From Actinomycetes bacterium (lineage in GTDB: Bacteria; Actinomycetota; Acidimicrobiia; Acidimicrobiales; Acidimicrobiaceae), in the NCBI GenBank assembly GCA_021805205.1, contig JAJZFV010000002.1, positions 62,001 through 126,000 of the forward strand: a stretch of 64,000 bases of DNA, written 5' to 3'. The position numbers were made by a program, and so were the translations under genes. Positions within the stretch are counted from its first letter, which is position 1, and every line of letters starts with the position of its first letter. Below the pieces are notes generated by a model. The model did not search any database and was not told the DNA's origin. It worked only from the letters and a program-made list of their open reading frames with translations. Positions 5,431-29,521 of the stretch are shown one piece after another.

Positions 5431-6291
5431 ATGAAAGACGAGAAGGACGCACTGGCGCTCTCTTACGAGCGCTGCAAGGAACTGAACAAGAGATTCGGGA
5501 AATCCTACTACTACTCGACCTACCTATTGCCTAAATCGAGTCGTAAGTACATCCACTCACTCTATGCCTTCTGCCGTTACGCCGACGATATAGTCGACGA
5601 CTTTGATCCAAGCGATCTTGCGTCTCGCAAAGAGAGACTCAAGAAGTTTAGTGACGACTTCTACCACGATTTGAAGGTCGGTCAATCTAGCGATCCAATT
5701 CTTAGAGCCGTTATACACACGGTGAAACTCTTTGACATAGAGGTCGAGCTATTTGACAAGTTTCTGCACTCGATGGAGATGGACTTTTCCAAAACTCGAT
5801 ACGAGACCTACGATGAACTACTGGGCTACATGGAGGGATCTGCAGCGGTAATTGGCGAGATGACGCTACCAGTTCTTGAACCTTCGTCAAAGTACGCCAG
5901 AGAACCAGCTCGTCAATTGGGCTTTGCATTTCAGCTGACTAACTTCATCCGCGACGTTGAAGAAGACCTGAAGCGAAACAGAATATATCTCCCCCTTTCC
6001 GACGTCGAAAAGTTCGACGCACTTGAAGATCTGTTACTCAATAAGAACTCCGAGAGGGTGAGGGATCTTATTTCATTTGAAATCGATAGGGCCAGGGAGC
6101 ACTACTTACAATCATTAGCTGGAGATTGCTACCTCCCTCCTCGATCAGCTGCGTGCGTTCAAGCAGCTAGAGACCTATATTCTGGGATCTTGCAAGAGGT
6201 AGAAAAGTCTAACTATCAGATATTTGGCCACAGGGCTACGGTATCGATGTACCGCAAGCTAAAGACTGCAGCACGTACCGTCGTTATCTAA
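5431..6291 (+). CDS. crtB: phytoene synthase
   Basis: Squalene/phytoene synthase family enzyme that condenses two GGPP molecules to phytoene, the first committed C40 step. The first Asp-rich motif CRYADDIVDD lies at residues 48-57. The second, NFIRDVEEDLKRNRIYLP, lies near residue 170 and is diagnostic for phytoene synthases. It is 286 residues long. It starts two bases after the crtI stop, using a ribosome site inside the end of crtI. It converges on rmuC with only 29 bp between the stops and no clear hairpin. Confidence 0.93.
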   Translation: MKDEKDALALSYERCKELNKRFGKSYYYSTYLLPKSSRKYIHSLYAFCRYADDIVDDFDPSDLASRKERLKKFSDDFYHDLKVGQSSDPILRAVIHTVKLFDIEVELFDKFLHSMEMDFSKTRYETYDELLGYMEGSAAVIGEMTLPVLEPSSKYAREPARQLGFAFQLTNFIRDVEEDLKRNRIYLPLSDVEKFDALEDLLLNKNSERVRDLISFEIDRAREHYLQSLAGDCYLPPRSAACVQAARDLYSGILQEVEKSNYQIFGHRATVSMYRKLKTAARTVVI

Positions 6292-21369: not shown

Positions 21370-21420
21370 CTATAAACAAAGAACCCTCGGCAAGTTTCGC
21401 CGAGGGTTCTTTGTTTATAG
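21370..21420. terminator. 22-bp perfect hairpin, bidirectional terminator
   Basis: Positions 21370-21391 pair perfectly with 21399-21420 around a 7-nt loop. The GC-rich core (GAACCCTCGGC) is flanked by A/T-rich arms that supply a T-rich 3' side on both strands. It can stop the permease transcript on + and the tRNA-Ala transcript on -. Confidence 0.8.
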
Positions 21421-21498
21421 TTTGACTGTACCATCACTTACCGAAAAGACCCATCGCCACAGAGAGACGTCGCAAGAGGTTATGTTCGGGACAAGTAG

Positions 21499-21702: not shown

Positions 21703-22254
21703 TTAACGATAATTTGCAACCCGGGCATCAGTAAACGAACCGTAGTACGAGTCATTATCTACTTGGATTTGGGGTTGGATGAACTGGCCCCTTCTCAAAT
21801 TATTAACAGATGCTCCTTGAACCGACCTACCTCGCACTGAGCTTTCGCGCAATCCAGCTGTGACGAATAGCGCCAGTACGTAGCCACCCAGCAGAGATAG
21901 GGAGATTAGCGAGAGCAGAGCTAATGCACTAACAATCAATGAAACCACTGTTGTCATGACAAATGTTGCGACCAGAAGACCGAGGATCTGTCTGCGACGA
22001 TGAATAGAAGTAGAAGGAACCGAGAAGGAACGAACACTTTGACTTTGGGCCATCTTGACCCTCTCTTTTGACTTGGTTGCGGTAACGGTTGTGCCATTCG
22101 ATGTAATTGCAAGAGTAGTCCTAGTGCGTTCAAGAACCAGAAGTTGATTTCTAAAGCGATTGACCGACAGCTCTATCGTTCCAGTCACATACCGATAGAC
22201 GCCTACCGAAGCGATTAGAAACGCCCAAACAGCTAGAACAATTACAACAGCCAT
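21703..22254 (-). CDS. hypothetical membrane protein
   Basis: Unrecognised protein of 183 residues from ATG at 22254. One N-terminal helix (about residues 2-20) is followed by a basic cytoplasmic linker of about 85 residues, then two adjacent helices (about 90-140) and a hydrophilic tail. An upstream start at 22305 is possible, but the ATG at 22254 has GAGAGG before it. Its upstream flank is where repeat copy 1 begins, 28 bp from the longer start. No catalytic motif is visible. Confidence 0.6.
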   Translation of the reverse strand: MAVVIVLAVWAFLIASVGVYRYVTGTIELSVNRFRNQLLVLERTRTTLAITSNGTTVTATKSKERVKMAQSQSVRSFSVPSTSIHRRRQILGLLVATFVMTTVVSLIVSALALLSLISLSLLGGYVLALFVTAGLRESSVRGRSVQGASVNNLRRGQFIQPQIQVDNDSYYGSFTDARVANYR

Positions 22255-22368
22255 ATCGAGCCTCTCGCCATCCAACGCGGGAATTACACACTTGTATTTT
22301 AGCACGTGATTATAAGAAGGGCCGAAAAAAAAATTGCTTCAAAAAGAAGGAAAAGTTTTCAAGTGATG

Positions 22369-22397
22369 TTGAGCGAAAGTCGATGCTCTCGTATAAG
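22369..22397 (+). promoter_or_regulatory. promoter of MarR gene, copy 1
   Basis: TTGAGC (22369-22374), a 17-bp spacer, and TATAAG (22392-22397). It lies inside the repeat, so each copy can be transcribed independently of its flanks. Confidence 0.6.
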
Positions 22398-22408
22398 GAA
22401 TTTGAAAT

Positions 22409-22423
22409 CTCCATCATCTGGAG
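22409..22423. promoter_or_regulatory. candidate autoregulatory operator, copy 1
   Basis: CTCCA-TCATC-TGGAG is a perfect 5-bp inverted repeat 11 bp after the -10 element, at or just past the expected transcription start. This is where MarR proteins usually bind for autorepression. Confidence 0.4.
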
Positions 22424-22462
22424 CATCAAGCAATCAGCGAGAAGGCACGGAGGCTTTCTATC

Positions 22463-22966
22463 ATGAAGTTACATCAAGTACCAACGGGGCAAGAGATTGT
22501 CACTTGGAGGGCTTTCCTACGGGCAAATCTGCTCCTAGAGGCGTACCTGGATGCCGGTCTTCAAAGTGAAATTGGAGTAACCCACAGTGGCTTTTTAGTC
22601 ATGACTCTCTTGTATGAAGAGGGTGAAGAAGGGTTGTCGATGACCGACATCGCAGCACTAACTCAATTTTCAAGGAGTCGACTATCTCATCTGATATCGC
22701 GCCTTGAAGAAGATAAGTATGTCGCTCGACGTTCTTCAACCTTCGACCGCAGAAGTCAAATTGCACTGCTAACACTAGCTGGCAAAAAGACGGTAGAGAT
22801 TGCAACCCCCTACTACCACTCAATCCTTAGAGATCTCTTCTTTGATCGCATGACTAGTCAAGAACTAAATACCATTCAAAAGTTCATGGTCTCAATCGTA
22901 AACAACACTGGCAAGATGGTAAATGAGCTAGATCGAGATCGTCCCACACGTGAGATCGCCATATAA
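22463..22966 (+). CDS. MarR family transcriptional regulator, copy 1
   Basis: A 167-residue winged-helix regulator. GLSMTDIAALTQFSRSRLSHLISRLEEDKYVARR (about 57-90, quoted in parts: LSMTDIAALTQFS, SRLSHLISRLEEDKYV) is the helix-turn-helix. FDRRSQIALLTLAGKK is the wing, with the family Asp-Arg-Arg. Flanking helices form the dimer interface. MarR proteins repress transporters or stress genes and respond to phenolic or oxidative signals. The ATG at 22463 follows GGAGG. The gene is alone in its unit, with no divergent target gene. The protein is identical to copy 2. Confidence 0.92.
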   Translation: MKLHQVPTGQEIVTWRAFLRANLLLEAYLDAGLQSEIGVTHSGFLVMTLLYEEGEEGLSMTDIAALTQFSRSRLSHLISRLEEDKYVARRSSTFDRRSQIALLTLAGKKTVEIATPYYHSILRDLFFDRMTSQELNTIQKFMVSIVNNTGKMVNELDRDRPTREIAI

Positions 22967-23175
22967 CTGTATATACAACTACCTAGATAAGAACTACCTC
23001 TGAATTGAAGGGTATCGAAGCAGATACCGATTAGTCGAGTAGACCTACGACAGCTACCTGTTAGCTCCCAAGGGCTTGTTCGGTAGCGGTAGAAACAGTA
23101 GACAGAAATCTAGCAGCAGCAGATACTTCGAATCGGTAGAGAAAGCCGATACAAGACATAGCGCTGTGATTAGTG
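22967..23175 (+). other. long 3' UTR of MarR unit, possible structured RNA
   Basis: About 210 nt between the MarR stop and the terminator with no ORF. It contains small stems such as GGTATC/GATACC and ATCGG/CCGAT. It is identical in copy 2. It could be a 3'-derived small RNA or merely a spacer. Confidence 0.3.
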
Positions 23176-23218
23176 ACAACACAGGTAGTGGGGCTATAAG
23201 CCCCACTACCTGTGTTGT
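23176..23218 (+). terminator. terminator of MarR cassette, copy 1 (loop ATA)
   Basis: Perfect 20-bp stem (23176-23195 with 23199-23218) around loop ATA, followed by TTTTG. In copy 2 the same stem encloses TAT, the reverse complement of this loop. Confidence 0.85.
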
Positions 23219-23434
23219 TTTGAAATAGGGGCTGAATGATGGGTTAGGGGGAGGGAAAATCAAAAGATTTTTATTATCTTTAATGTAAATATTCGATCAA
23301 TAAATCGTTAATTCTCTGCAAGTCAACGCAACCAAAAGGAACTTTGAAATATAGCATGTAGCTCACGGCGCGCTCGGCGTCGAGCGCTGCGTACATCCCC
23401 TCTGTGTTGATTATGTGCACGCTAACAAAATTGT

Positions 23435-24154
23435 ATGAGCAAAGAAGAGTCACTAGTGATCGATAATTCCTCTCGGCCAAAGATACTTTTTGTCGAAGAT
23501 GACGTGGAACTTTCGGCATCTGTGGTGCAATTCCTATCCGAAAATGAGTTCCAAGTTGCAAGCGCATACAACTACAACGATGCACTAGCAATCTTGAAAA
23601 GTACAAAAGTAGCGGCTGCGATAGTGGATGTCATGCTTCCATCGAACAGCGGCTTAGAACTGTGCTCCTACATCACAGAAAGCTTTCCTGCGGTACCAGT
23701 GATAATCGTCACCGCTCTTTCTAGCGAACAGGATCGTCTCTCGGGATTTGAAGCAGGTTCTGACGACTATCTGGTCAAGCCATTCCTACTATCGGAGTTA
23801 CTAGCTCGAGTTCGAGTGTTAGTGAGGCGGAATCGACAATCAGATGCACCATCTAATTTGACATTTGCAATGATTGAGATAGATGCCGAACAAAATCTTG
23901 CATTCGCAGACGGCAAAGAGGTGAAACTTACCCTCCGAGAGATTCAGATTGCCATAGCACTCATCAAAAGAGCTGGAATTGTCATATCGAGGGCGACCTT
24001 GATCGCTGAAATATGGGACAACGACGAAAACATCTCGACAAACAACGTTGATCAATACATTCGTCGTCTGCGGACCAAGCTATTTACCCCAAAAGGCGGA
24101 TGCGAAATTGAAACAATCCACGGAATAGGGTACCGTCTAAAAGAGAGCAAGTGA
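23435..24154 (+). CDS. response regulator, OmpR/PhoB family
   Basis: Two-component response regulator of 239 residues. The receiver domain (about 15-128) has acidic pair Glu21/Asp22, phospho-acceptor Asp65 in IVDVMLPS, and Lys115 in DYLVKPF. The C-terminal winged helix (about 140-237) has LTLREIQIAIAL, NNVDQYIRRLRTKL and a final IHGIGYRL, the OmpR signature. The ATG has no clear Shine-Dalgarno; a GTG seven codons later is an alternative. It is followed after 14 bp by its histidine kinase. The pair is bracketed by the MarR repeats. The signal is unknown. Confidence 0.92.
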   Translation: MSKEESLVIDNSSRPKILFVEDDVELSASVVQFLSENEFQVASAYNYNDALAILKSTKVAAAIVDVMLPSNSGLELCSYITESFPAVPVIIVTALSSEQDRLSGFEAGSDDYLVKPFLLSELLARVRVLVRRNRQSDAPSNLTFAMIEIDAEQNLAFADGKEVKLTLREIQIAIALIKRAGIVISRATLIAEIWDNDENISTNNVDQYIRRLRTKLFTPKGGCEIETIHGIGYRLKESK

Positions 24155-24168
24155 ATTAGAGTCTTCAG

Positions 24169-25581
24169 ATGACCATCAGATCAAGAATCGCACTTATCTT
24201 CGCGCTTATGGCGGTGGTCTTCTTCGCCGTCGCAGGTACTTTGCTATATCGCAGCAACGATAATGCGATCATGAATACCCTCAAAAATGATCTAAGTAGA
24301 TCTAGCGCTCGAATCATTGACCAACTTGATTCGAAGGTAATCCGGCTAAGGCCTTTGGTTGATGGGCCAGTTTTGGTACGAGAACAGGAGTTTATTCAGA
24401 TCTTCGATTCAGCTAATCACTTGCGTTACACCACACAGGGGGCCGGAGGAGCACCATCTATATCTTTGGCCACCGTCGAAAGCGCAAAGATAAATACGCC
24501 AAGTTACGTCACCTTTCGACGATCAGAGAACGATAGGTTCCTGATTCTTGTAATCCGAGACGACGCCACAAATAACGTGATAGCAGTTGGCGGAAGTATC
24601 GACCAGCTGATAGATTCCCGTTCAAATATTCTGCTCGATATCCTCATTGGGCTCCCCCTAACCGCAGTATTGGCTTTCTTGGCCGGTTACTACTTGGCCG
24701 GACGCGCCCTTGCACCCGTCGACAAACTCCGGCGCGAAGCCGAAGAGCTGAAAGAGCTCGGCGAAGGAGAGCTCCTTACGATACCAAAGACCAGAGACGA
24801 GATTGCTGATCTGGCCCAAACCCTAAATTCGATGATCATCGATATTCGAAAGTCAATTGCAGAACAAAAGATCTTCATAGCTTCAGCTAGCCACGAGTTA
24901 CGGACCCCTTTAGCAAGAGTATCGGCCGACCTTGAGCTAGCACTTCTTGAGGGACGATCCTTAGAGGAGATTGAGACTCTGATTCGAAAAGCCGACCGCA
25001 ATATTAGAAAGCTAGTAGTGGTCTGCAACTCTCTGCTCACCATAGCAAAGCGGGAGAGAGACGAGGTCAACTTCAACCTCTCGCTTTGCAGCCTAGATGA
25101 ATTTATATCTGAGACTGTTGAGGGACTTCGCCGTGATGCCGATGCTAAGTCAGTCAATCTTGTCCTTGACATTACCTGCAAGCCGTTAGTCGCTATAGAT
25201 CCGTATCATCTGTCCAGAGCTCTCGAAAACATTGTGGAGAATGCATTGAGATACTCGCCGCCCGATTCATTCCTTACAGTAAGCCTCTCACTCCTAGATA
25301 CAAATCAAGTACAGATAGATGTAGTTGATCAGGGTCCAGGATTCCCTATCGACTTCATCAGCGAAGCTCTCCGACCATTTTCTAGAAGTGACAAGACCAC
25401 ACTCGATGGATTCGACCGATCTTCATCGGGAGGGGCCGGTCTTGGACTATCAATCGCAAATATGATCACCGAAATGCACCGAGGAAGGATCAAGATTTCG
25501 AATAATTCCGGGGGAGGAGCACGGGTCTCGATTATCCTTCCCCGCTTCGAGGGGGCAAAAGAGCTAAGCCCAACCCGATAG
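24169..25581 (+). CDS. sensor histidine kinase
   Basis: Membrane histidine kinase of 470 residues: helix about 7-27, extracytoplasmic sensor about 28-153, second helix about 154-177, HAMP linker to about 232. The phospho-accepting His242 sits in SASHELRTPLARV. The ATPase domain has the N box ENIVENALRYSPP, G1 DQGPGFP and G2 GGAGLGLSIAN. It is co-transcribed with the response regulator upstream. The sensor domain has no recognised ligand fold. Confidence 0.92.
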   Translation: MTIRSRIALIFALMAVVFFAVAGTLLYRSNDNAIMNTLKNDLSRSSARIIDQLDSKVIRLRPLVDGPVLVREQEFIQIFDSANHLRYTTQGAGGAPSISLATVESAKINTPSYVTFRRSENDRFLILVIRDDATNNVIAVGGSIDQLIDSRSNILLDILIGLPLTAVLAFLAGYYLAGRALAPVDKLRREAEELKELGEGELLTIPKTRDEIADLAQTLNSMIIDIRKSIAEQKIFIASASHELRTPLARVSADLELALLEGRSLEEIETLIRKADRNIRKLVVVCNSLLTIAKRERDEVNFNLSLCSLDEFISETVEGLRRDADAKSVNLVLDITCKPLVAIDPYHLSRALENIVENALRYSPPDSFLTVSLSLLDTNQVQIDVVDQGPGFPIDFISEALRPFSRSDKTTLDGFDRSSSGGAGLGLSIANMITEMHRGRIKISNNSGGGARVSIILPRFEGAKELSPTR

Positions 25582-25646
25582 ATACAGATAAACCGTTAGC
25601 CGCAATTGATCACTCGCCCTCTACAAACATTGGATCTGCGCTACCT

Positions 25647-25679
25647 CCTCCTTTATCAATCCTCCAATCAAAAAGGAGG
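25647..25679 (+). terminator. possible weak terminator after the kinase
   Basis: CCTCCTTT (25647-25654) pairs with AAAGGAGG (25672-25679) across a 17-nt loop, in the 272-bp gap between the kinase and the LCP gene. The T-run lies about 10 nt after the stem, so function is uncertain. Confidence 0.3.
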
Positions 25680-25853
25680 CAATCTAGAATTTTTCCACAT
25701 CAAAAAATTCCAACGAATACCACTCTGAAGTGGGATAATCCGGCCTCATCCAACAGCCTCGCCCCTAAATTTTCTCCGTTCGGTTAGGATTAAATAAGTC
25801 AAATAGGCTCAACATCACCCCAAACTATTGAGCAGATCAGGAGGAGCAGGTAA

Positions 25854-27437
25854 TTGGCGGATCTTGGTGGAGCAAAAAACCCGGTCCACGGTCACAGCTC
25901 CAAAAGGAGACGAACAACCGGACAAGTACGTCTTAGGAGAACTGTATTCATCGTCGGGACATTAGTCCTGGTGCTAGTTTTAGGCGCCTTGGGTTCGTAC
26001 GTCTACGGGCAATACCTATTTTCCACGGTTAAAAAGGTAAACGTATCGTCTGAGGCAACTCAGGTCGCTGGACAACCGCTTAATATCCTGATCATCGGCA
26101 ATAACACAAGAACTGGACTAAGCCCCGCCGAAGCTGCCGCCTTTGGCTCGGCTGCTCAGGTAGGTGGCGGGCGTGCTGACGTATCAATGATCGCTCACTT
26201 TGACCCCAAAACAAAAAATGTCACTCTCGTATCAATTCCGAGAGACCTCTTCATGCCGATACCTGGTACCAAAAAACTCCAACGAGTGGATGCAGCTCTG
26301 AATCCCACAGCTAGAACTGGAACTGCAGAAGATCCAAATCGCCTCGTCAGGACAATCGAATACGACCTTGGAATTCCCATTCAGCACTACGTCGAATTAA
26401 ACTTTGACTCATTCCAAGGAATTGTCAACGCCCTTGGTGGAGTAAAGATGTACTTTCCAACTCCCGTGAAGGATGCATACTCTGGACTCAACATAACTAC
26501 GACAGGTTGCATCAATCTCAATGGTTACCAGGCACTTCAAGTGGTAAGGGCTCGCCACCTTCAGTACCAACGTCCAAATGGAACCTGGGGCTACGATGGC
26601 TTGGGTGACCTATCACGGACTCGTCGAGACCACATCTTCCTTCAAGTTCTGGCATCTAAAGTGAAGGCATCAGGGATCTCGAACCCGGTAAAGGACCTCA
26701 ACCTCCTCAAGAGCGTCCTACCATTTCTTACCATAGATAGTCAATTTACCGAATCTGAGATGCTCTCTCTAATTCTCACTTATCGTCACGCCAATCCCGA
26801 GGCGACTCCGACTGGCACCCTTCCGGTAGCCTTCGGCCCAGCTTCCGGATACGTCTTCGACGGTGTCAACTACAACTCGATCGTACTCCCACAAGAGCCA
26901 GCTGATACATCAATGCTCAAGAGCCTCATAGGGCTTACTCAACCCAAAATCTCTCCCGCCTCCATTAACGTGACCGTAGTCAATGGATCGCACTCCTATA
27001 GTTCTGGCTCAACTATCGAATCTGGTCTGAAGGGGCTTGGTTTCAACGTCAAGGGGGCACCCTCCGTAGCTCCAAACGCCAATCCTGTCGAATCAGTTAT
27101 CTACTACACCCCAGGAAATCTTGCCAAGGCAGAGGCCCTTAAGAACACCTTGACGGGCGAGGTAATTATGGGTCAGGTACCCTCTACGGGATACTCCACT
27201 CCCCTAGAACTTCTCGTCGGCGACCAGTTAGCTATCGCCGTTGCACCAGTATCGACACCTTCTACCACCCAAGTGGCTACGACCCAGCAAGCCACGAGTA
27301 GTACAACGGCGGCGGGAAAATCTTCGTCGGTCACGCCATCGACTACACCAACGACGATCGTTAGCATAACTGGCGCCACACAAGTAAACGTTTCCCAGCA
27401 ACCCCAGCCTTGGGATCCAAGGGCTTGTCCCGCTTAG
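25854..27437 (+). CDS. LytR-CpsA-Psr (LCP) family protein
   Basis: LCP protein, a membrane-anchored enzyme family that attaches lipid-linked glycopolymers to peptidoglycan. A basic N-terminus, one helix (about 25-50) and the LCP domain (about 75-255) are visible. The domain includes ILIIGNNTR, GRADVSMIAHFDP with the conserved Arg-x-Asp, VSIPRDLFMPIPG and VRARHLQYQ. A LytR_C-type domain (about 365-440) follows, then a Ser/Thr/Pro-rich tail. The TTG start follows AGGAGG at 9 nt. Lying beside the two-component system, it may belong to an envelope-stress response (inference). Confidence 0.92.
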   Translation: MADLGGAKNPVHGHSSKRRRTTGQVRLRRTVFIVGTLVLVLVLGALGSYVYGQYLFSTVKKVNVSSEATQVAGQPLNILIIGNNTRTGLSPAEAAAFGSAAQVGGGRADVSMIAHFDPKTKNVTLVSIPRDLFMPIPGTKKLQRVDAALNPTARTGTAEDPNRLVRTIEYDLGIPIQHYVELNFDSFQGIVNALGGVKMYFPTPVKDAYSGLNITTTGCINLNGYQALQVVRARHLQYQRPNGTWGYDGLGDLSRTRRDHIFLQVLASKVKASGISNPVKDLNLLKSVLPFLTIDSQFTESEMLSLILTYRHANPEATPTGTLPVAFGPASGYVFDGVNYNSIVLPQEPADTSMLKSLIGLTQPKISPASINVTVVNGSHSYSSGSTIESGLKGLGFNVKGAPSVAPNANPVESVIYYTPGNLAKAEALKNTLTGEVIMGQVPSTGYSTPLELLVGDQLAIAVAPVSTPSTTQVATTQQATSSTTAAGKSSSVTPSTTPTTIVSITGATQVNVSQQPQPWDPRACPA

Positions 27438-27681
27438 TTCCTATTCAGATCGGCCAACGTAGAGTCACGGCACAAAAAAGGGGCGGTAGAGCAGGGGTAA
27501 CGATGTTTTGCCGCCAAACCTTCGCACAAAGCAATTACTCTCCCCAAATTCAACTCAAGAATAAATTCACCCATACTCCTAGTGAGGTGGCGAAACCATG
27601 CCCATACCGACCCGCCGCGGAGAAGTGAGCTCTTCAAACATGCCTTTGCTACTTCTTCACCAGCTACCTCACGCATCGACC
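27438..27681. other. intergenic before repeat copy 2
   Basis: About 245 bp between the LCP stop and repeat copy 2. No convincing gene, tRNA or terminator. It may be the remnant of sequence that once followed prmC or the LCP gene. Confidence 0.45.
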
Positions 27682-27717
27682 ATTGCTTCAAAAAGAAGGA
27701 AAAGTTTTCAAGTGATG

Positions 27718-27746
27718 TTGAGCGAAAGTCGATGCTCTCGTATAAG
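27718..27746 (+). promoter_or_regulatory. promoter of MarR gene, copy 2
   Basis: TTGAGC (27718-27723) and TATAAG (27741-27746), 17-bp spacer; identical to copy 1. Confidence 0.6.
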
Positions 27747-27757
27747 GAATTTGAAAT

Positions 27758-27772
27758 CTCCATCATCTGGAG
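27758..27772. promoter_or_regulatory. candidate operator, copy 2
   Basis: CTCCA-TCATC-TGGAG inverted repeat just after the promoter, identical to copy 1. If it is a MarR site, both copies repress each other. Confidence 0.4.
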
Positions 27773-27811
27773 CATCAAGCAATCAGCGAGAAGGCACGGA
27801 GGCTTTCTATC

Positions 27812-28315
27812 ATGAAGTTACATCAAGTACCAACGGGGCAAGAGATTGTCACTTGGAGGGCTTTCCTACGGGCAAATCTGCTCCTAGAGGCGTACCTGGA
27901 TGCCGGTCTTCAAAGTGAAATTGGAGTAACCCACAGTGGCTTTTTAGTCATGACTCTCTTGTATGAAGAGGGTGAAGAAGGGTTGTCGATGACCGACATC
28001 GCAGCACTAACTCAATTTTCAAGGAGTCGACTATCTCATCTGATATCGCGCCTTGAAGAAGATAAGTATGTCGCTCGACGTTCTTCAACCTTCGACCGCA
28101 GAAGTCAAATTGCACTGCTAACACTAGCTGGCAAAAAGACGGTAGAGATTGCAACCCCCTACTACCACTCAATCCTTAGAGATCTCTTCTTTGATCGCAT
28201 GACTAGTCAAGAACTAAATACCATTCAAAAGTTCATGGTCTCAATCGTAAACAACACTGGCAAGATGGTAAATGAGCTAGATCGAGATCGTCCCACACGT
28301 GAGATCGCCATATAA
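27812..28315 (+). CDS. MarR family transcriptional regulator, copy 2
   Basis: A 167-residue protein identical to the one at 22463, with the same helix-turn-helix and wing. No substitution, silent or otherwise, separates the two genes by eye. Doubling may raise dosage, or one copy may be functionally redundant. It is convergent with prmC and ends in its own strong terminator. Confidence 0.92.
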   Translation: MKLHQVPTGQEIVTWRAFLRANLLLEAYLDAGLQSEIGVTHSGFLVMTLLYEEGEEGLSMTDIAALTQFSRSRLSHLISRLEEDKYVARRSSTFDRRSQIALLTLAGKKTVEIATPYYHSILRDLFFDRMTSQELNTIQKFMVSIVNNTGKMVNELDRDRPTREIAI

Positions 28316-28524
28316 CTGTATATACAACTACCTAGATAAGAACTACCTCTGAATTGAAGGGTATCGAAGCAGATACCGATTAGTCGAGTAGACCTACGAC
28401 AGCTACCTGTTAGCTCCCAAGGGCTTGTTCGGTAGCGGTAGAAACAGTAGACAGAAATCTAGCAGCAGCAGATACTTCGAATCGGTAGAGAAAGCCGATA
28501 CAAGACATAGCGCTGTGATTAGTG

Positions 28525-28567
28525 ACAACACAGGTAGTGGGGCTTATAGCCCCACTACCTGTGTTGT
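28525..28567. terminator. terminator of MarR cassette, copy 2 (loop TAT)
   Basis: Perfect 20-bp stem (28525-28544 with 28548-28567) around loop TAT. It can also serve the prmC transcript, which arrives from the other strand. Confidence 0.85.
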
Positions 28568-28609
28568 TTTGAAATAGGGGCTGAATGATGGGTTAGGGGG
28601 AGGGAGAAT

Positions 28610-29467
28610 TTAACGATTCAACTTTGCGCAGACAACATAACGATCCTGCGACGCAAAGTCCCGGACCACCGAAACATCGCCAAAGCCGACACCTCTAGCA
28701 ATCTCTGAAACGACCTTACCCTGGTCGAATCCTATTTCAAAGTAGATCGTTCCGTCCTCCGATAGATAGTCAGAAGCTTGATCTAAGATCAAGCGGTAGG
28801 GCTCAACTCCGTCTTCACCGCCATCAAGAGCAGTTACCGGCTCCATGGCCAGTTCTAATTGCAACCCTTTTATATCGCTACTTCTTATGTAGGGAGGGTT
28901 AGAGACGATCAGATCGTAGCTAACTTTCGGGACCCTATCAAACCAGTTACTCTCTATAACTTCCACTTCACAATTGATAATTTCTATGTTGCGACGTAAG
29001 TTCTCCCTTGTCAACGTACATGAAACCTCAGATAAGTCCGCGAGTACAACGTGTGATGCAAAGTTGGTAGCAGCTAGTGCTAACCCGATGGCGCCAGTCC
29101 CACACCCCAAGTCAAGAATCCGAATGTCTCTTTTTTTATCCCTACCAAGGTCAGAAATAATTATCTCTACCAAACCCTCGGTCTCAGGTCTAGGGATAAG
29201 AGCCCTGGGATCACAGATCAAGTCAAGGCCAGCAAATGGCCAATGGCCAATCAAATATTGGAGTGGCTCGCCGGATAATCTTCGCTCTGCCCACTCATCC
29301 AACGATTCGATCAAATAACTTTCTAAAGACTGGTCAATAGGTAGGTCGGTTAAAAGGCGATGAATCTGGAAACCACGACGACCGAGCAACTCTTCTACTG
29401 CCCACCGTACTTCATTTTCGCTCGCAAAACCGATTCGATACCGTTCGATGATCTCTGCGTAGCGCAT
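28610..29467 (-). CDS. prmC: release factor glutamine methyltransferase
   Basis: SAM-dependent enzyme that N5-methylates the Gln of the GGQ motif in release factors. The SAM site ILDLGCGTGAIGLALA is near residue 112, and the catalytic motif SNPPYI is near residue 187. The N-terminal helical domain that docks on the release factor is present. I prefer ATG at 29467, preceded by AAGGA at 7 nt, over the ATG at 29488. It follows its substrate gene prfA on the same strand, a classic pairing. Confidence 0.94.
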   Translation of the reverse strand: MRYAEIIERYRIGFASENEVRWAVEELLGRRGFQIHRLLTDLPIDQSLESYLIESLDEWAERRLSGEPLQYLIGHWPFAGLDLICDPRALIPRPETEGLVEIIISDLGRDKKRDIRILDLGCGTGAIGLALAATNFASHVVLADLSEVSCTLTRENLRRNIEIINCEVEVIESNWFDRVPKVSYDLIVSNPPYIRSSDIKGLQLELAMEPVTALDGGEDGVEPYRLILDQASDYLSEDGTIYFEIGFDQGKVVSEIARGVGFGDVSVVRDFASQDRYVVCAKLNR

Positions 29468-29521
29468 CCATTCTTCCTTACATGTCATCGATCAAGGCTG
29501 TGGAGGGACAGACCTAGGGCC

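Follow-up and report, generated by a model that had tools for sequence, protein, structure and literature searches.

How did two nearly identical copies of a regulatory unit come to flank a group of signaling and cell-envelope genes in this genome, and what keeps the copies alike? The original prediction, made from the 64,000-nt window (the whole stretch of DNA analyzed here), offered two readings, recent spread of a regulatory cassette or gene conversion. Comparison with related genomes leads us to conclude that the pair very probably reflects one old duplication homogenized in concert, and that the unit is not a mobile cassette and has not spread recently.

A duplicated MarR transcription unit

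Base-by-base comparison of positions 22333-23256 (R1) and 27682-28605 (R2), both on the forward strand, confirms two direct copies of 924 nt with a spacing of 5349 nt. The sole mismatch is a stretch of three nucleotides, ATA at 23196-23198 in R1 and TAT at 28545-28547 in R2, and identity stops sharply at both sides. Identity over this length cannot arise by chance, and a scan of the 64-kb window revealed no second direct repeat of at least 40 nt. R1 lies between a SepX/GlpR-like gene on the reverse strand (21703-22305, a weak family match) and a forward-strand gene for an OmpR-type response regulator (RR, 23435-24154). The latter is followed, also on the forward strand, by a sensor histidine kinase gene with HAMP-HisKA-HATPase architecture (HK, 24169-25581) and a LytR-CpsA-Psr family cell-envelope gene (LCP, 25854-27437), beyond which lies R2. 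The right flank consists of prmC and prfA, with prmC (28610-29488, reverse strand) convergent with R2 and ending 4 bp past it. A 51-nt self-complementary stretch (21371-21421; L038 7371-7421), which is 90% identical to its own reverse complement, is present just upstream of a tRNA near the SepX-like gene.

Within each unit, on the forward strand, a conserved upstream block, CTTCAAAAAGA-N4-AAAGTTTTCAAG (22337-22363 in R1 and 27686-27712 in R2), precedes the promoter-like sequence TTGAGC-17-TATAAG (22369-22397 and 27718-27746) and a palindrome, TCTCCA-N5-TGGAG, at the predicted transcription start (22408-22423 and 27757-27772). The marR gene follows (22463-22966 and, with identical sequence, 27812-28315), encoding 167 amino acids with no cysteine. 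Downstream are a 3′ UTR and a terminator palindrome with a 20-bp stem (23176-23218 and 28525-28567). The coordinates and anatomy of the repeats, including the marR reading frame, the start-site palindrome, the terminator stem and the 4-bp gap to prmC, thus agree with those originally described, and only the 3′ UTR, predicted to span 210 nt, proves to be 209 nt long.

Both copies occupy equivalent places in a second species

The unit was searched for at the DNA level in the genome that carries it, in 60 relatives and in 397 sampled genomes of the order. The unit is present exactly twice in the 2.62-Mb, 55-contig assembly from which the window derives (contig 40) and nowhere else in it. The unit is carried by three of 12 congeneric genomes, namely the window's own (G000), G001 (ZJ1.bin81) and G008 (ZJ1.bin61), and it is absent from the other nine. 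No DNA match was found outside the genus in the 397-genome sample, and the best proteins from beyond the genus share 37-44% identity. Collections of viral contigs and phages yielded no unit at meaningful similarity, and plasmids only MarR proteins of about 30% identity.

G008 carries both copies, 5790 nt apart, with order, orientation and neighbors as in the window: tRNA-SepX-R1-RR-HK-LCP-R2-(3-kb insert)-prmC, the SepX-like gene to the left of R1 being retained. The left edge of the repeat coincides within 4 nt in G000 and G008, where the unique flanks cannot be aligned, and this shared edge points to a single ancestral duplication. The right edges differ, the repeat being 924 nt in G000 and 759 nt in G008.

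Sharp, conserved left ends and a self-contained promoter-gene-terminator arrangement are what a self-spreading cassette with defined ends would exhibit, one of the two readings originally offered. However, such an element should appear at varied sites, and the search of the genome and its relatives returned two copies only, at places that are equivalent in both species. The absence from nine congeners, from the order-wide sample and from the mobile collections argues in the same direction. As had been noted originally, repeat comparison detects no terminal inverted repeat at the ends of R1 or R2, and their flanks hold no convincing target duplication; nor does a transposase accompany the units. 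On the genomes and collections searched, we therefore reject a transposon or mobile cassette, to which we assign almost no probability. Recent spread is likewise not supported, given the syntenic pair in a congener at a dS of about 0.92.

The junction next to prmC differs among the relatives. In G008, the 3-kb insert between R2 and prmC (L035 14142-17157) holds an AAA-ATPase-like gene recognized by eye only, and in G001 the region after prmC (L072 9549-12280) encodes long, repetitive, secreted-type proteins. On the basis of these two observations, the junction may be an insertion hot spot.

The copies are identical within genomes and diverged between them

The two marR copies have no differences in 504 nt within G000, and likewise none within G008 (dS of 0 in each). 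Between G000 and G008, however, marR has a dS of 0.92, corresponding to 64.5 synonymous differences in 122 sites, with 7.5 nonsynonymous differences. The 3′ UTR behaves similarly, in that it cannot be aligned between the species but is identical between the copies in G000, the terminator loop aside, and nearly so in G008. Because this noncoding segment is alike within a genome and unalignable between species, homogenization must act at the DNA level and is not explained by selection on the protein. Paralogues within a genome are thus closer than syntenic orthologues at synonymous and noncoding sites alike, and the syntenic placement of both copies in G008 makes the duplication older than the species split. 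Gene conversion, the other reading originally offered, is well supported by this pattern. It had also been suggested that ancient, diverged copies in related genomes would speak against the original interpretation; the copies do predate the species split, yet between themselves they show no such divergence.

In a tree built from marR DNA, copies from the same genome group together, although the distinct sequences are too few to yield support values. The marR pS between species (0.47-0.53) is at the low end relative to the compared ORFs, whose medians are 0.67-0.72 in a list that includes shadow ORFs, and the MarR protein is among the most conserved of these ORFs, shadow ORFs again being counted. 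The G008 copies differ at six positions, which fall within the initial 65 nt or the final 95 nt of the 759-nt repeat and never in coding sequence, a distribution that fits edges escaping conversion but that short-read assembly would preserve as well. One of the six changes affects the −10 hexamer, which is TACAGG in one G008 copy and TATAGG in the other (L035 7661 and 13451), such that the two promoters may differ in strength.

Copies that are identical within genomes and diverged between them would also be produced if each lineage had recently duplicated the unit on its own, with the copy at prmC being copied twice to an equal place upstream of the response regulator gene. The unequal right edges are compatible with such separate events. 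Nonetheless, this scenario requires that the same place, the same orientation and the same left breakpoint (within 4 nt) were arrived at on two occasions, although there is neither a transposase nor a target duplication, nor any third copy, and we regard it as improbable.

Assembly as a source of identity

Identical repeats that exceed read length are a classic assembly problem, and at least G001 and G008 (ZJ1 NODE contigs) appear to have been assembled from short metagenomic reads. Bubble collapsing during assembly can remove internal differences while sparing those near unique flanks, which is the pattern seen, since the remaining differences lie near the edges. The data might then represent one real locus, or diverged copies forced to one consensus, and the contig of G001 is clearly a collapse or a ring. 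However, two independent assemblies hold both copies inside contigs of 395 kb and 421 kb with different unique flanks, and those of G000 and G008 each retain copy-specific differences. Real divergence of a few percent between R1 and R2 could be masked by assembly, but not divergence of the roughly 15% seen between species, which would not collapse. We therefore consider an artifact very improbable. Both copies are assembled in two species only, G000 and G008, with G001 being ambiguous.

An inverted terminator loop distinguishes R1 from R2

The three mismatched bases, originally reported as such, coincide exactly with the loop of the terminator hairpin, and the loops of R1 and R2 are reverse complements of each other. 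Indeed, the entire 43-nt segment at 23176-23218 is the exact reverse complement of 28525-28567, with the stem unchanged. A single inversion of the loop, instead of three separate substitutions, therefore accounts for the difference. The two hairpins are predicted to be equally stable (−39.9 kcal/mol, z about −8.5 to −8.9).

Loop inversion by replication template switching has been documented in bacterial hairpins, including those of Actinobacteria (PMC8794818). The common feature is that a perfect hairpin has its loop alone swapped for the reverse complement, whereas the documented inversions distinguish rRNA lineages and the present one distinguishes two paralogous terminators on one chromosome. 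Template switching at the hairpin may be the source of the ATA/TAT flip, which would be the sole difference between R1 and R2 remaining since the last homogenization in G000. If so, the flip marks a site where mutation reappears after homogenization.

A probably autoregulated unit

Judged by its Pfam matches (MarR_2, E=2e-10, 40.9 bits with a cut-off of 27; MarR, 30.4 bits with a cut-off of 24.6), the 167-amino-acid product is a MarR-family regulator. The nearest solved sequences are PDB 3zpl (E 5e-21) and 3zmd (4e-16), which correspond to the MarR regulators SCO3205 and AbsC, respectively (PMC3737563). The winged-helix MarR domain is common to all three, and a palindrome lies upstream of the regulator's own gene both here and in SCO3205 (PMC3737563). 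Unlike these two systems, the marR described here has no established match to the TTnAAnnnTCAA operator, is not paired divergently with a target gene, and is duplicated. Its protein is 96-99% identical between species, compared with 55-62% for the flanking prmC product and 71-77% for the response regulator.

The predicted promoter is present in sequence and spacing, with TTGAGC (22369-22374) and TATAAG (22392-22397) separated by 17 nt, but it matches the consensus weakly and was not called by a promoter consensus scan. The block is nonetheless conserved in the relatives. All three species keep the right half of the start-site palindrome, and G000 and G001 keep the left half as well; the palindrome is likely to be an autoregulatory MarR operator, through which MarR would repress its own promoter. 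The upstream block CTTCAAAAAGA-N4-AAAGTTTTCAAG is a possible operator or UP element. This block was found only at the copies of the unit in G000, G001 and G008, so that it leads to no other targets. The strict operator TCTCCA-N5-TGGAG has three sites in G000, two of them inside the units, with no excess over reversed-pattern controls, and neither search identified MarR target genes. A search of Rfam matched the 3′ UTR to no known RNA, the single match being the neighboring tRNA. We conclude that each repeat is a self-contained MarR-family transcription unit that is probably autoregulated.

Origin of the flanking arrangement

G002, a relative that carries no copy of the unit, encodes a single MarR of about 53% amino acid identity that is convergent with prmC, and therefore the place of R2 beside prmC is probably ancestral. 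This value stands out from the conservation of the protein among species that carry the unit and would reflect either an abrupt rate change or a replacement. In G001 the sole copy sits on a contig of 5950 nt, arranged as LCP-R-RR-HK. The ends of this contig (L036, positions 1-126 and 5816-5941) are perfect direct repeats of 126 nt, and at one end a tail of 9 further nt follows. The SepX-like neighbor was not found in G001, and the G001 contig bearing prmC has no unit in the 3 kb before its end. The 5950-nt contig looks like a collapsed two-copy repeat, as two identical copies collapsed by the assembler are expected to give just such a permutation. The same order is predicted by a genuine ring or tandem array, although the 9-nt tail does not fit a clean ring.

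These observations bear on a Campbell-type origin, in which a circle carrying R-RR-HK-LCP entered by a single crossover at a resident marR beside prmC and so left flanking direct repeats. The R-[RR-HK-LCP]-R topology agrees with such an event, as do the single MarR convergent with prmC in G002, where the LCP gene lies elsewhere, and the matching ends of the circularly permuted G001 contig. On the other hand, the gene upstream of MarR in G002 is a different one and the SepX-like gene of G002 lies on a separate contig, so one insertion alone does not account for the change; the contig tail again does not fit a clean circle; and the permuted order is just as well accounted for by collapse of a repeat. 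We consider this origin unlikely, but it deserves more weight than the other alternatives. It addresses only how the arrangement arose and is compatible with later gene conversion. Under it, recombination between R1 and R2 remains able to remove the block or to amplify it.

A more speculative extension, to which we attach a low probability, is that the MarR units serve as recombination bookends. Conversion would keep them identical and crossover would excise or tandemly amplify RR-HK-LCP, with the ring-like G001 contig as one such product. If this were true, the envelope block would be in reversible copy-number variation.

Probable concerted evolution of a transcription-factor unit

Returning to the reading that we prefer, the unit would have undergone a single duplication, before at least two species of the genus separated, with its copies flanking the RR-HK-LCP block. 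Gene conversion, the most likely homogenizing mechanism given the comparisons above and presumably RecA-dependent, would then keep overwriting one copy by the other, and such overwriting makes the two copies of one genome identical, whereas copies from different genomes diverge. The two identical copies might constitute a dosage pair.

Gene conversion between duplicated genes has been measured for tufA and tufB in Salmonella (PMC5485169), and a broad survey found 26 long-lasting, recurrent prokaryotic cases (PMC6053082) by the same reasoning from synteny and synonymous likeness as is used here. As in those systems, the present copies are identical at synonymous sites, syntenic in relatives and diverged between species. 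Components of complexes or pathways make up most of the surveyed cases, and the main text of the survey mentions neither MarR nor any transcriptional regulator (PMC6053082). The present case differs from tufA/tufB and the surveyed cases in that the gene encodes a MarR transcription factor, and in that the homogenized tract includes the promoter, palindrome, 3′ UTR and terminator; it is documented in a single genus. It thus represents a further case of an established process, with a self-contained transcription-factor unit, complete with promoter and terminator, as an unusual substrate.

Long-lasting concerted evolution of bacterial protein genes is rare, a broad survey having counted 26 recurrent cases (PMC6053082). 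The pair described here illustrates that a duplication inferred to be recent from one genome can be old, and it raises the question of whether the dosage of the regulator is selected for or whether conversion simply outruns divergence.
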